NCBI GenBank assembly: GCA_036265815.1
Contig: DATAOI010000088.1
Location: forward strand, 1-43,556
Source: Gemmatimonadales bacterium
GTDB taxonomy: Bacteria; Gemmatimonadota; Gemmatimonadetes; Gemmatimonadales; GWC2-71-9
Length of the DNA stretch: 43,556 nucleotides
Direction: 5' to 3'
Notes under the pieces: generated by a model
What the model was told of the DNA's origin: nothing
What the model saw: only the letters and a program-made list of their open reading frames with translations
Database searches by the model: none
In this document: positions 7,914 through 15,993 of the stretch, piece by piece
Numbering within the stretch: the first letter of the stretch is position 1
How the letters are laid out: each line of letters starts with the position of its first letter
Translations under genes and position numbers: made by a program

Positions 7914-10847
7914 TCATCGCCGGCTGCTCCCTCGGTGGTGGAGCGCGCGCTCCACCTCCGCCATCAGCACGGGCTGGGTACGCCGCTGCGGCTCCATGAT
8001 CGCGCGCGCGGCGAGCATGGAGGCTTCCGCCTCGCGGCGCCGGCCTAGCGCGAGGAGGCACTCTCCCACCCCAAGCTGGGCCTCTGCCGTCCTGTAGTTG
8101 TCGGGCCCGAGCTTTCGGGTACTCTCCTCCAAAGCGCCTTGCAGGATCCCCAGTGCCTCCTTGGCCTCCCCGAGCTGGACCAGACTCCGACCGAGGCCGA
8201 TGGCCGCGTGCACCCGGAAGGGGTCGGTGTCGGGGTTGTCGGGCTCGAGGCGGGCCAGCGCCTCCCGGAACAACGTCGCCGCCTCCTGGAATCGCCCGCT
8301 CTCCCGCAGCGCCCGGCCCAGGTGTACCTCCACCGCCAAGGTGTTCCGGTGTCCTTCGCCTGAGACGCGGCGGTTCAGGGCCAGCACCCGGCGGAGAATC
8401 GACGCCGCGCTGTCCGGGCGACCTTGCATGCGGAGCACCGAGGCGAGCTCGTTCAGGTCGTACCCGACGTAGGTGTGCTCCGGGCCGAAGGTCGCCTCGT
8501 CGATTGCCAGCGCCTGGCGGAGCAGCCGCTCGGACTCGGCGAAATCCCCCCGCTCCCGCACGATCACCGCCAGGTTCCCCAGGTTCGTGCTGACCTCCAC
8601 GTGGTGCTCGCCGAGCCGGCGTCGGTTGATGGCCAGCGCCTGGCGGAGCAGCGTTTCCGCCTCCTCCATCCTGGGCGTCGCCTTCTGCAGCAGGTCCGAC
8701 AGTCCGTTGAGGGTGGCCGCCACCATGGGATGGTCCTCTCCCAGCGTGCGCCGCTGGGCCGCGAGGGCCCGGCGGTAGAGGCTCTCCGCCACCGGGATCC
8801 GACCCAGCCGCCGCTCGGTCAGTGCCAGGTGGAACATCGTTTTGGCCGCGAGCGGGTGGCTTGCTCCCAGCAGCCGCTCCTGCACGGCGAGGGCGTCCCG
8901 ATAGAGCGGTGCCGCCTCCGCGTCGGCCCCTCGGTCAGTGAGTACTTCCGCCAGCATCCGCTTGCTGTCCGCAGTAGCCAGGGAGCTATCGCCGTGGATG
9001 GCGCGTTGAATGGCCAGCGCCTCGCGTGCCAGCGCCTCGGCGCTGGCGAACTCGTTCCGCTCCCGGCGCACCTCCGACAGGTGCTCCAGGCTCGCGGCGG
9101 TGGCCGTGTCCTGGGTGCCGAGCAGGGCGCGGTGGAGGGTCACGGCCTGGCTCAGCAGCGAATCGGCCTCGTCGAGCCGCCCCTGGTGGTCGCGTACCTC
9201 TCCCAGCTGGTCGATGATCGCCGCGGTGGCGACGTGCCGGTCGCCCGTGATCGCCCGCTGCTCCGACAGCGCGGCGGCGAGCTGGATGGCCGCATCGTCG
9301 TAGAGACCGAGGTTGGTGTAGACCCGACCCAGGGAGCTTCGGAGCCGCGCGCGAACCACGGGTTGCCCGGCGAGCGAGGTGTCGAGCCGGGCCGCGCCGC
9401 GGTCGAGGAGCCCGCGGGCCGAGCTCGCGGCTGCGCTGGTGTCGCCGGGGAGAAACGGATCCGACGCGCCGAAGACCGTCAACAGATACTGCTCCACCGC
9501 GTGCGCCGTCTGGGTCTCCCCCTCTGCCAGCGCGCGGAGACGGTGCTCCCGCACCGTCGCGAACACCATCCCCGCAGCGATGGCGCCCGCTACCGCAAGT
9601 GACGCGCGGTGGCGACGGGTAAACTTGGCGGCACGATATCGGAGCGAGTCAGGACGCGCGCTGACCGGCTCGTCCGCAAGGTATCGCCGCAGGTCATCGG
9701 CGAATGCGGCCACCGTGGGATAACGCTCCCCGGGATCCTTCTTGATCGCCCTGGCCACGATGTTGTCCAGGTCGCCAAGGTAGAGCCGTCGCAGCCGCTC
9801 GGGAGTGCTGCCGCGCGCCTGAGCCTGCCCGCGGCAGGCCTCCCGCTCGCCGGCACCGGCCGGCCACACTGCGGCGCTCAGGCGGCGGGGCTCGGTCTCG
9901 GTGATCGCCCGGAGATGGTCGGCGGGCGAGCGGCAGGCATCTCCGGTCGGGTGCCGTCCGGAGAGGAGCTGATACAGCAGGACGCCGAGGGCGTAGACGT
10001 CGGTCGCGGTGGTCACCGGATCGCCGCGCACCTGCTCGGGTGCGGCGTACTCCGGGGTGAGCGCGAGGCCGCCCTGCTCGGTGAGGAGACTGCGGTCCGC
10101 GGGGGCGGCGTCCTCCGCCAGCAGCTTGGCAATCCCGAAGTCGAGCAGCTTGACCGTGCCGTCGGGGGTCACGAGGATGTTGGACGGCTTGATGTCCCGG
10201 TGGACGATCAGGTTCGCGTGCGCGTGGCCCACCGCCGCGAGCACGTCCAGGAACAGTCCGATCCGACCAGCCGGCGGGAGACGCAGGGTGTCGCAGTGCC
10301 GGTCGATCCGCTCGCCCTCGACCCGCTCCAGCACGAGATAGGGTTGGCCGGCCCCGGTGAGTCCCGCGTCCAGCAGCCGCGCGATGTTGGGATGATTGAC
10401 TCGCGCGAGGAGCGTTCCCTCGCGCCGGAAGCGCTCGGCGCCCACCGGGTCGAGCAGCGCGAGGTTCAACAGCTTGACGGCGGCGGTCCCCTCGAAGCGT
10501 CCGTCGCTGCGGCGGGCCAGCCATACGGTTCCCATCCCGCCTCGGCCGAGGGGCTGCTCGATGGTGTAGCCGCCGAGCCGCATGCCCGCGAGGGCGGCCG
10601 GCGGCCGATCCCCATGGCCGATGGGCCCCCGGGCCAGGAAGCCGGAGCGGTCGAGCTCGCCCTCGGCAGCGAACAGCCGCTCCAGCTCCGCCGCGTGCTC
10701 TGGCTCGCGTTCGCGGAGCTCGGACAGCCAGACGGCCCGCTCGGCGGGGTCCAGGTCCAACGCCTGTTCGAGCAGCCGCTCCAGTGCGGCGATCAGGGCC
10801 GGGGTGGCGCGGGTCATCAGGTCCACCCGACCGGATGCCTCAGGCAT
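7914..10847 (-). CDS. Transmembrane Ser/Thr protein kinase with C-terminal TPR array
   Basis: The protein has 977 residues. The Hanks-type kinase domain (about 92-390) has a Gly loop GRGGMGTVW (101-109), Lys125 in AAVK, the HRDIKPSN catalytic loop (Asp218), DFG at 236-238 and the TPEYAAPEQV activation segment. All key residues are present, so it should be active. One membrane helix lies at about 415-432. The rest (about 450-960) is a long array of kinesin-light-chain-type TPRs with a period near 42 residues (LLRQALAI..., LYRRALAAQRR...). With one helix, the TPR half would lie outside the inner membrane. The start ATG lies inside the end of the sigma-factor gene (ATGCCTGA), so the two are co-translated. 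A second ATG 10 codons on is possible. Confidence 0.93.
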   Translation of the reverse strand: MPEASGRVDLMTRATPALIAALERLLEQALDLDPAERAVWLSELREREPEHAAELERLFAAEGELDRSGFLARGPIGHGDRPPAALAGMRLGGYTIEQPLGRGGMGTVWLARRSDGRFEGTAAVKLLNLALLDPVGAERFRREGTLLARVNHPNIARLLDAGLTGAGQPYLVLERVEGERIDRHCDTLRLPPAGRIGLFLDVLAAVGHAHANLIVHRDIKPSNILVTPDGTVKLLDFGIAKLLAEDAAPADRSLLTEQGGLALTPEYAAPEQVRGDPVTTATDVYALGVLLYQLLSGRHPTGDACRSPADHLRAITETEPRRLSAAVWPAGAGEREACRGQAQARGSTPERLRRLYLGDLDNIVARAIKKDPGERYPTVAAFADDLRRYLADEPVSARPDSLRYRAAKFTRRHRASLAVAGAIAAGMVFATVREHRLRALAEGETQTAHAVEQYLLTVFGASDPFLPGDTSAAASSARGLLDRGAARLDTSLAGQPVVRARLRSSLGRVYTNLGLYDDAAIQLAAALSEQRAITGDRHVATAAIIDQLGEVRDHQGRLDEADSLLSQAVTLHRALLGTQDTATAASLEHLSEVRRERNEFASAEALAREALAIQRAIHGDSSLATADSKRMLAEVLTDRGADAEAAPLYRDALAVQERLLGASHPLAAKTMFHLALTERRLGRIPVAESLYRRALAAQRRTLGEDHPMVAATLNGLSDLLQKATPRMEEAETLLRQALAINRRRLGEHHVEVSTNLGNLAVIVRERGDFAESERLLRQALAIDEATFGPEHTYVGYDLNELASVLRMQGRPDSAASILRRVLALNRRVSGEGHRNTLAVEVHLGRALRESGRFQEAATLFREALARLEPDNPDTDPFRVHAAIGLGRSLVQLGEAKEALGILQGALEESTRKLGPDNYRTAEAQLGVGECLLALGRRREAEASMLAARAIMEPQRRTQPVLMAEVERALHHRGSSRR

Positions 10848-11400
10848 CCTGCATGGTCCGGTGCAGGAGCAGTCGTGCCTTGCGCCAGTCGCGCTGCATG
10901 GTGCGCTCCGACACGTTCCGAAGCGCCGCGAGCTCCCCCAGGGAGAAACCGCAGAAGAAGTGCAGATCCACCAATTGCGCCAGCGCGGGGTCGACGCCGG
11001 CGAGGGTGTGGAGTGCGCCGTCGAGCTGCTCCAGCTCCTCCGGTCGCACCTCGTTGGATGCCAGGTCGGCGCCCGAGGACGTGATCTGGAATTCGCCGCC
11101 TCGCTTCTTGGCCTGCCGACGACGCGCGTAGTCGAGCATCAGTCCGCGCATCGCCCGCGCCGCATAGGCCAGGAACTGCCCCCGGCTGGCGAAGGCAACC
11201 CCCTCCCGACCGGAGATGTTCAGGTAAGCCTCGTGCAGGAGGGTCGTGGTCCCGAGGGTGAGATCCGAGCCGCCCTGATGGAGCTGGCGCTCGGCGATCC
11301 GGTGCAGCTCGTGGTAGAGCGCCGCGAAGAGCTGGTCCGCAGCGGTCCCATCCCCGGCCTCCGCAGTCTGGATGAGCCGACCGATCGACTGATCCACCAC
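10840..11400 (-). CDS. ECF-type RNA polymerase sigma factor (Sig-70_X6-like)
   Basis: The protein has 186 residues when started at the GTG at 11400. Region 2 includes LFAALYHELHRIAERQL and the stretch FLAYAARAMRGLMLDYARRRQAKKRGG; region 4 includes HFFCGFSLGELAALRNVSERTMQRDW. This matches the ECF group usually found beside Ser/Thr kinases in Acidobacteria, Planctomycetes and Gemmatimonadota. The frame is open up to 11583, but a well-formed promoter lies at 11449-11477 inside that extension and GAGG precedes the GTG, so the short form is preferred. There is no anti-sigma gene; the co-translated kinase is the likely regulator. The target promoters are unknown. Confidence 0.9.
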   Translation of the reverse strand: MVDQSIGRLIQTAEAGDGTAADQLFAALYHELHRIAERQLHQGGSDLTLGTTTLLHEAYLNISGREGVAFASRGQFLAYAARAMRGLMLDYARRRQAKKRGGEFQITSSGADLASNEVRPEELEQLDGALHTLAGVDPALAQLVDLHFFCGFSLGELAALRNVSERTMQRDWRKARLLLHRTMQDA

Positions 11401-11448
11401 TGAGGTCCTCGCCTGGCCGGAGCGATTGGAAGGGAAGGATTCCGGCAG

Positions 11449-11477
11449 AACATATGGCGCGACGAGGGACTCGTCAA
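11449..11477 (-). promoter_or_regulatory. Promoter of the ECF sigma factor-kinase operon
   Basis: On the minus strand, -35 TTGACG (11472-11477), a 17-bp spacer and -10 TATGTT (11449-11454). The predicted transcript would begin near 11442, giving a leader of about 40 nt before the GTG at 11400. It looks like a housekeeping sigma-A promoter. Confidence 0.72.
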
Positions 11478-11602
11478 AGTCCGTGGGGATCGATAGACCG
11501 CCAGCCGCGCGCGGCACCGGGGAACGGTGCAATACATGGCACTCGGTGGCCTCGGCGGTGAAGCCCAACCGGTGTGGTGGCATGATGCACTCGTGGCAAG
11601 GG

Positions 11603-13905: not shown

Positions 13906-14739
13906 TTACAGGTCGAACCGCAGCTCGGCGCCGATGTAGCGGCTTTCCTTCCGAAAGAACTGGCGCTGGGTGGAGAGCCCGTCGTGGGCGATGAGGGCGA
14001 TCCCGAGCTCCCGCCCATCCGACACCAGCGCAATGCCCAGCTTGGCCGACGTACTTACCCGCCAGTCGGTGGCCGCCGCACCCTCGAAATAGACGCCACC
14101 CACCGGCCGAACCTGCCCGCCGAGCAGGGTCCCGACCGGCCGGCTCCGAAAATCCACCGCGAGCGCCGCGCCGGGCCGGGGAAGCCGGAGCTGATCGATC
14201 AGCGCGTAGCTGAGCTCGCCGGTCAGGCGCCACGGGCCGGCACGCCAGCTGGCCCAGCCCGCCGCGACTTCCCGGGTCCAGTCGAGCCGGGTGGCATCGA
14301 ACCGGTCGCGGTACTCATCGCCCAGGTGGCTGCTCTCGTGGTACACCTCGGCCGTCAGCTCCCAGCGTCCCAGCGCGGCCGTCGTGTTGAGGCCTACCAC
14401 CCAGTCGTTGCTGATCTGGGCGCTCTTGGAGTCACCCAGGCTGAACCGGCCGTACACCTGCGACCCGAACCCGAGGGTGATCGGCCGAGGTCCACGCCGG
14501 AGCGCCAGCACCGGGAAATTCTCGCCCAGCCCCACCTCGGCCTCCGCCTCCCGACCGAACTGACTGTCGCCCTTGCGAGCGGAGAAGAGGCGTCCCACCA
14601 GACCGTGCACCCTGGGCGATGCCTCGGGCAGCTCGAAGCTCGGCACCCGGGGGAAGAGCCGCGCCTGCGCGGCCAACGGAGCTCCCGAAGCGAGGAGAAG
14701 CAGGAGCGCCCCCGCCACCCGCGTATGCATGCTTGACAT
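13906..14739 (-). CDS. DUF1207-like exported protein, probably outer membrane
   Basis: The protein has 277 residues with a signal peptide ending in PLAAQA. The mature start (RLFPRVPSF, then a Pro/Glu-rich stretch) and the motif EVYHESSHLGDEY in the middle resemble the DUF1207 family of Gram-negative envelope proteins. Many alternating strands (ITLGFGSQVYGRFSLG, WELTAEVYHE, WRLTGELSYAL) and a C-terminal strand ending in Phe-Asp-Leu suggest a barrel. The function is unknown for the family. AGAAGG precedes the first ATG closely; the ATG 3 codons on has better spacing. It is divergent from the copper-protein gene at 14878, with 138 bp between them. Confidence 0.68.
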   Translation of the reverse strand: MSSMHTRVAGALLLLLASGAPLAAQARLFPRVPSFELPEASPRVHGLVGRLFSARKGDSQFGREAEAEVGLGENFPVLALRRGPRPITLGFGSQVYGRFSLGDSKSAQISNDWVVGLNTTAALGRWELTAEVYHESSHLGDEYRDRFDATRLDWTREVAAGWASWRAGPWRLTGELSYALIDQLRLPRPGAALAVDFRSRPVGTLLGGQVRPVGGVYFEGAAATDWRVSTSAKLGIALVSDGRELGIALIAHDGLSTQRQFFRKESRYIGAELRFDL

Positions 14740-14877: not shown

Positions 14878-15993
14878 ATGTTGTGGAGCACGTTTCTCCT
14901 CGCCTCGATGCTGTCCGGGCCGGTGCGGCCGCATCCGGCGCCCACTGTCCTCGTGGCCGTCGACTCCTCCAAGCACGAGCTGACGATCACGGCCGGCCCG
15001 TTCGATCTCCCCAATATGCCGCCGATGACCGGCAACAACATGATGGATCACGGCATGTCGCACGACACGCCGGTGCAGCACTTCGCCTGGCCGGTGGAGG
15101 GCTGGTTCCGCGGCTACCGGGTCGACCTGGTGAACGCCAAGGGGCAGCCGGTGCCGAAGCACGTCATGCACCATCTCATCATGGTCAACTTCAGCCGGCG
15201 GCAACTGGTCTACTCGGCCGCCGAGCGGCTGATGGGCGCCGGCACCGAGACCGATGACGAGGTCAGCGTGCCCAAGACCATCGGCGTGCCGATGAGGCCG
15301 GGGATGAAGCTGGGCATGTACGTCGCCTGGCACAACGACACCGGCAAGGACCTCGATGGCGTCTTTCTCAAGCTGACCATGCTGTGGACCCCCAAGAACC
15401 AGAACCCGCGGCCGGTGAATTCGCTGCCGATCTACATGGATGTGAACCTGACCGTCGGAGGCAGCAACACGTTCGACGTGCCACCCGGCAAGTCCACCAA
15501 GTCGTTCGAGTTCACCCTTCCGGTCGGAGGGCGGCTCCTGGGCGTGGGCGGTCACATGCACGACTACGGCGTGCGGGTACGGCTGGAGGACGCGGAAACC
15601 GGGAAGGTCATCACCCAGGTGGTCGCGACCCGCGATTCGGCCGGGCATGTGAGCAAGGTGAGCCGCAAGCTCTACGGGGTCAGCGGAGACGGGCTGCCGC
15701 TCAAGGCCAACCACCGGTACCGCGTGGTCGGCGAGTACGACAACCCCACCGGCGAGACGCTGATCAAGGGCGCCATGGCGCATATGGTGGGGCTGTTCGT
15801 ACCGGACGACATGAGCGAGTGGCCGTCGATCAATCCCCAGGATCCCACCTACCAGCGCGATCTCGCGTCGCTGCAGGTCAGAGGAGACATGGTGGGGATG
15901 GAGCACGGCGAGCATGGAGGGACGGAGCACGAGTCGATGAACATGCCGCATCCGGCCGGCGACAATCACGAGGCGCACGCGCCCCATCAGTAG
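14878..15993 (+). CDS. Putative PHM-like copper type II monooxygenase-fold exported protein
   Basis: The protein has 371 residues with a short hydrophobic N-terminus that may be a signal. Candidate copper ligands follow the layout of peptidylglycine monooxygenase (PHM). His98-His99 (VMHHL) and His152 (YVAWHN) would form site A; His226 and His228 (GGHMHDYG) plus Met300 (KGAMAHM) would form site B. The gaps of 53, 74 and 72 residues compare with 64, 70 and 70 in rat PHM. Extra Met/His-rich stretches lie at 46-68 and 341-370 and could bind more copper. The substrate is unknown. GGAG lies 10 nt before the ATG, which follows an in-frame TAA directly. A TTGACT at 14848 has no convincing -10 partner. 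Confidence 0.6.
   Translation: MLWSTFLLASMLSGPVRPHPAPTVLVAVDSSKHELTITAGPFDLPNMPPMTGNNMMDHGMSHDTPVQHFAWPVEGWFRGYRVDLVNAKGQPVPKHVMHHLIMVNFSRRQLVYSAAERLMGAGTETDDEVSVPKTIGVPMRPGMKLGMYVAWHNDTGKDLDGVFLKLTMLWTPKNQNPRPVNSLPIYMDVNLTVGGSNTFDVPPGKSTKSFEFTLPVGGRLLGVGGHMHDYGVRVRLEDAETGKVITQVVATRDSAGHVSKVSRKLYGVSGDGLPLKANHRYRVVGEYDNPTGETLIKGAMAHMVGLFVPDDMSEWPSINPQDPTYQRDLASLQVRGDMVGMEHGEHGGTEHESMNMPHPAGDNHEAHAPHQ

Follow-up and report, generated by a model that had tools for sequence, protein, structure and literature searches.

In animals, PHM completes the maturation of peptide hormones and DBH produces noradrenaline. Copper in PHM is held by H107, H108 and H172 at the CuH site and by H242, H244 and M314 at the CuM site, and the two coppers are uncoupled and lie about 11 Å apart; R240, N316 and Y318 form the pocket for the peptide carboxylate. 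It is known from earlier work that PHM is widespread in eukaryotes and that PHM and PNGase F belong to one Pfam clan (PMC8812541). Both the cooperation of the two distant PHM coppers and the use of a closed state, in which a single copper draws its ligands from the two sites (H107, H242, H244), are debated (PMC6123673). PHM and DBM are described as eukaryotic; the family reported here is a large bacterial branch, in which five copper ligands are kept and the sixth drifts, and it represents a natural experiment on copper cooperation and the closed state.

The window that we analyzed is a stretch of 43,556 nucleotides, contig C88 of the 4.6 Mb genome of a soil-dwelling member of the Gemmatimonadota. 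A single open frame at 14878-15993 (+ strand, as are all features of the gene given below) encodes a protein of 371 amino acids, P0001, with a hydrophobic N-terminus. This frame is a real gene, which we annotate as a putative divergent PHM-fold copper protein on the basis of its translation, an AlphaFold model and structure comparison. Of 395 Gemmatimonadota genomes in the sample, 129 contained homologues; Acidobacteriota have them too, and P0001 belongs to an unnamed family of these two phyla. The family is single-copy in the genome of the window. Elsewhere paralogues are common, up to three per genome, and in one genome two different members are adjacent (L039:1280-2329(-) and L039:4253-5281(+)), as is also seen at L082.

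No Pfam or NCBIfam model matched P0001. The first-pass annotation had read P0001 as an exported protein with the complete copper-ligand pattern of a PHM-type two-copper monooxygenase and had pointed to the Cu2_monooxygen and Cu2_monoox_C models (PF01082/PF03712); neither P0001 nor any of 65 relatives matched these models above the Pfam gathering cut-off. Searches of PDB sequences with P0001 alone and with the family profile gave no match, nor did a plasmid search with P0001. A CusF (PF11604) match to P0001 was rejected (E 6.5; 7.1 bits vs a cut-off of 27), and other Pfam matches among the relatives were rejected as chance. SURNod19 matched one relative weakly (E 0.29), and this model matched nowhere in 200 genomes, controls included, so that the scan carries no weight either way.

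Structure comparison and profile alignment both connected P0001 to the copper monooxygenases. The AlphaFold2 model, built with 65 homologues in the input (pLDDT 88.8, pTM 0.84), matched PHM at ranks 1-14 in a Foldseek search of the PDB (E 2e-9 to 7e-8). VIA-align placed it closest to PHM 6ala_C (Z 18.1, 241 residues, 3.0 Å) and human DBH 4zel_A (Z 17.3, 253 residues, 3.3 Å), with other PHM entries at Z 14-17. The next fold was PNGase F, a protein of Pfam clan CL0612 that shares the double jelly roll and is not a copper protein, at only Z 8.3; against a viral structure library the model gave weak jelly-roll similarities only. A positive control run identically, the Pfam-recognised Gemmatimonadota Cu2_monoox_C protein L160, reached Z 21.4 to PHM and 9.5 to the next fold, so that P0001, at 18.1, behaves as would be expected of a more remote member of this structural group. 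By its model, then, P0001 has the PHM/DBM double jelly-roll fold that had been expected of it, and the likeness to rat PHM (1phm, 6ala; Z 14-18) extends over residues 25-316. The N-terminal jelly roll (approximately residues 23-188, 14944-15441), as delimited by the model's secondary structure and the structure matches, would hold the CuH site, and the C-terminal one (approximately residues 199-309, 15472-15804) would hold the CuM site.

For the profile alignments we used 11 aligned PF03712 proteins from Gemmatimonadota, whose profile, searched against the PDB, retrieves PHM and DBH at 1e-17. With hhalign the P0001 family aligned to this set at 98.1% and 1.3e-13, and to the set plus rat PHM at 98.3% and 2.2e-14, E-values that hold for one pair of profiles; HH and HxH were in register in both. 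These alignments show by sequence profile that P0001 is homologous to the PHM/DBM Cu2 monooxygenases. The PF03712 proteins (L151-L162) share HH and HxH with the P0001 family, but are recognised by Pfam and carry a third His (xHY) and an EM motif in 11 of 11 aligned sequences. Gemmatimonadota hold several types of such Pfam-recognised Cu2_monoox_C proteins with all six ligands (L151-L162).

The ligands themselves were compared across 134 aligned relatives, some of them near-identical, and a 65-sequence alignment was also made. H98 and H99 (15169-15174), the counterparts of PHM H107/H108, H226-M-H228 (15553-15561), the counterpart of H242/H244, and M300 (15775-15777), the counterpart of M314, stand where the first-pass annotation had placed them, with the same order as in PHM; one hhalign version puts M300 opposite the DEM Met region. 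Loss of these residues in homologues would have spoken against that annotation, and they proved essentially invariant: H98, H226, H228 and M300 were each present in 134/134 relatives and H99 in 133/134, a conservation far beyond chance. E124 (15247-15249) is likewise invariant (134/134), R108, Y281, R282 and Y287 are nearly so, and we know of no PHM counterpart of E124. Copper binding by P0001 is very likely.

The sixth ligand behaved differently. H152 (15331-15333), which had been proposed as the third CuH ligand in its AWHN context, is kept in only 72 of 134 relatives, and close relatives replace it (AWSN, AWEN, AWAN, AWQN). In each of the three profile alignments PHM H172 pairs with A150 (15325-15327) and not with H152, and Q170 pairs with Y148; 89 of the 134 relatives have Met at position 150. 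Taking the two positions together, 48 rows have M150 only, 41 have both M150 and H152, 31 have H152 only and 14 have neither, and in the tree the clade of P0001 (Ala150 + His152) is sister to a 12-row clade with neither M150 nor H152 (support 99). Because positions 150 and 152 vary in this way across relatives and clades, the third CuH ligand is free to change in this family. The assignment of A150 to the H172 position is good but not proven, as an alignment at about 10% identity can slip by two residues within a strand; the lack of H152 conservation is a direct observation and independent of this register. Thus five of the six ligands of the PHM pattern held, and the third CuH ligand did not. 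It has been reported that the rat PHM H172A mutant loses the CuH copper (PMC6123673), and since the third ligand is also unconserved here, by analogy the standard two-copper mechanism may not run in P0001. Because of this ligand and of scores below the Pfam cut-off, P0001 should be classed as a divergent relative rather than a true PHM or Cu2 monooxygenase.

Several other features separate P0001 from its animal relatives. It contains no Cys and so has none of the conserved disulfides of PHM, and it lacks both the Cys and the DOMON domain of DBH. Counted from the aligned ligands, G224, H302 and V304 take the places of R240, N316 and Y318, and with these peptide-carboxylate residues missing, a PHM-like peptide substrate is unsupported. 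The hydrophobic segment at residues 1-21 (14878-14940), modelled as a helix at 2-11 and without Lys or Arg in its n-region, is a probable export signal; most relatives also start with a hydrophobic N-terminus, and judging by this segment only, P0001 is probably exported or secreted. A Met/His-rich loop at residues 46-68 (15013-15081; 8 of 23 residues), modelled at low confidence, looks inserted relative to PHM, and a Met/His-rich disordered tail occupies residues 338-371 (15889-15990; 11 of 34 residues; pLDDT <50 from 343 on). Both stretches are present in P0001 and in its clade, but their suggested role as copper-loading tails found no support. They are hardly above chance in shuffles of the protein's own composition (p ~0.18 and ~0.04, respectively), and the tail is not conserved, being missing in many relatives.

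In the model the two domains also have a closed-like arrangement. The best structural matches of the model were the closed conformers, PHM H108A-citrate (6ala) and DBH chain A, at an rmsd of 3.0-3.3 Å vs 4.3-4.9 Å for open PHM, whereas the control L160 displayed no closed preference (Z 21.1 open, 20.6 closed). P0001 thus seems, in a single metal-free model, most like the closed, one-copper PHM/DBH conformers. If the family works closed, as this metal-free model would have it, a third CuH ligand would be unnecessary.

The first-pass annotation had left the substrate open, and a one-carbon lead came from the gene clusters of relatives, invisible from the window alone. At loci L089-L096 (Gemmatimonadaceae, 47-53% identical) the family gene lies inside a tetrahydromethanopterin formaldehyde-oxidation cluster with the order fhcA-fhcD-fhcC-mch-mptN-like-PTPS-[P0001 homologue]-TIGR03123-mfnE-like-mfnB, about 33 bp after the PTPS gene and on the same strand. 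The products of this cluster include formylmethanofuran dehydrogenase subunits A and C, FhcD, methenyl-H4MPT cyclohydrolase, an MptN-like ligase, the H4MPT-linked TIGR03123 protein, an MfnE-like kinase and MfnB. Among 179 Gemmatimonadaceae genomes, the P0001 family occurs in 27 and mch in 14, and the family is present in all 14 of the latter, in one of them through a weak match (p 8e-14; counted by genus, 5/5 vs 10/35, p 8e-4); in seven of these 14 genomes mch and the homologue are at most 4 kb apart. XoxF-type dehydrogenases showed a weaker association (21/27 vs 48/152). In the wider phylum sample the family is present in about 30 of the 32 genomes with mch, provided that the 298 genomes fall within the earlier 395, and a PF03712 protein was found in 0 of the 32.

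It has been previously reported that soil Gemmatimonadetes carry out methanol methylotrophy via XoxF and the H4MPT pathway, that methanol oxidation is abundant there, and that no methane monooxygenase was found (PMC5103831). The genome of the window has fae, fhc, mch, cofactor genes and XoxF-type dehydrogenases on other contigs, C27 and C21, and by this gene content its organism is likely a methylotroph. Its C1 cluster has the gene order of clade B, to which L090 belongs, but no copper gene stands between PTPS and the next gene. On C27:60000-99999 (L163, L164) we observed an H4MPT/methanofuran C1 cluster with fae, fhc, mch, cofactor genes and an XoxF-type PQQ dehydrogenase. A C1 role of the P0001 family is plausible, although we regard it as doubtful. 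The link may be clade-specific, because the family also occurs in about 74 of 266 mch-negative genomes of the sample, is present in nearly every genome of the bacterial family that the window comes from, and has its copy in the window outside the C1 cluster. If the link is true, the family would be a candidate for the O2-dependent supply of C1 units in soil Gemmatimonadota, where no methane monooxygenase has been found (PMC5103831).

Our preferred reading, which we hold tentatively and just short of probable, is that P0001 is a PHM-fold copper protein that is secreted and probably acts as an oxygenase, its copper site being reduced or merged, and that it possibly supplies C1 units. H98 and H99 of the N-domain, with H226, H228 and M300 of the C-domain, would bind copper; the His2Met (CuM-like) site would most likely activate O2 for the hydroxylation of a small substrate at a C-H bond. 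The CuH-like site, with Ala, Met or a nearby His as its third ligand, would be weakened and would hold the donor copper loosely, or else the half-sites would come together as a single shared copper site, as they do in the closed PHM H108A-citrate and DBH chain A structures. In methylotrophic Gemmatimonadota the reaction might detach a methyl group as formaldehyde or methanol and in this way deliver a C1 unit to the tetrahydromethanopterin pathway. On oxygenase activity as such we lean narrowly in favor. That a PHM-fold oxygenase with merged half-sites (HH + HxH + M, the third CuH ligand dispensable), coupled or mononuclear, is the missing enzyme which oxidatively releases C1 units from methylated substrates into this pathway in methylotrophic Gemmatimonadota is a bolder proposal and distinctly unlikely.

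The degenerate third CuH ligand, the Met/His-rich loop and tail in the window's clade and the likeness to one-copper closed conformers would also suit a periplasmic protein that stores, chaperones or buffers copper, retains the PHM scaffold without its catalysis and loads copper with the help of loop and tail. We place this on the unlikely side: the CuM-type ligands, both CuH His and E124 are invariant over two phyla, with R108, Y281, R282 and Y287 nearly so, which is more constraint than a buffer needs; the tail is not conserved and hardly above chance; and no copper-resistance or copper-transport genes recur beside family members in the compared loci. For a copper-sensing system, an alternative role raised at first pass, we found no support. 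A full two-copper PHM/DBM-type monooxygenase, as originally proposed, in which H152 or else M150 completes the CuH site and electrons move by the standard long-range transfer, draws on the fold, the five ligands and the presence of H152 or M150, both residue types able to bind copper, in 120 of 134 relatives. However, H152 lies two residues past the H172 position in three alignments, the sister clade of P0001 has neither residue, and the model favors a closed arrangement, and we therefore consider it unlikely. A PHM-fold protein that no longer uses copper and is structural or carbohydrate-binding, like other CL0612 double jelly rolls, has a precedent in PNGase F, which has the same fold without copper (PMC8812541), but is hardly credible when exactly the copper ligands are invariant and the Z score is far nearer PHM.

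A DUF1207 gene (13906-14739, - strand) is divergent from P0001 across 138 bp of intergenic DNA, and the same pairing recurs in 12 close loci, suggesting that the two genes have a promoter region or a function in common. P0001 is alone on its strand, with groES/groEL and an NlpC/P60 gene nearby; neighbors in other clades (GroES/EL, NlpC/P60, HAD, amidohydrolase, pyruvate dehydrogenase) vary by clade and were not used for function. A distant clade with Met150 and Glu152 (L116-L127) adjoins HAD hydrolase, nucleotidyltransferase, aminotransferase and CDP-alcohol phosphatidyltransferase-like genes, a neighborhood that is possibly a lipid head-group cluster. Elsewhere in the window, at 7914-11583 (- strand), a large serine/threonine kinase-like protein is encoded beside an ECF-type sigma factor-like ORF.
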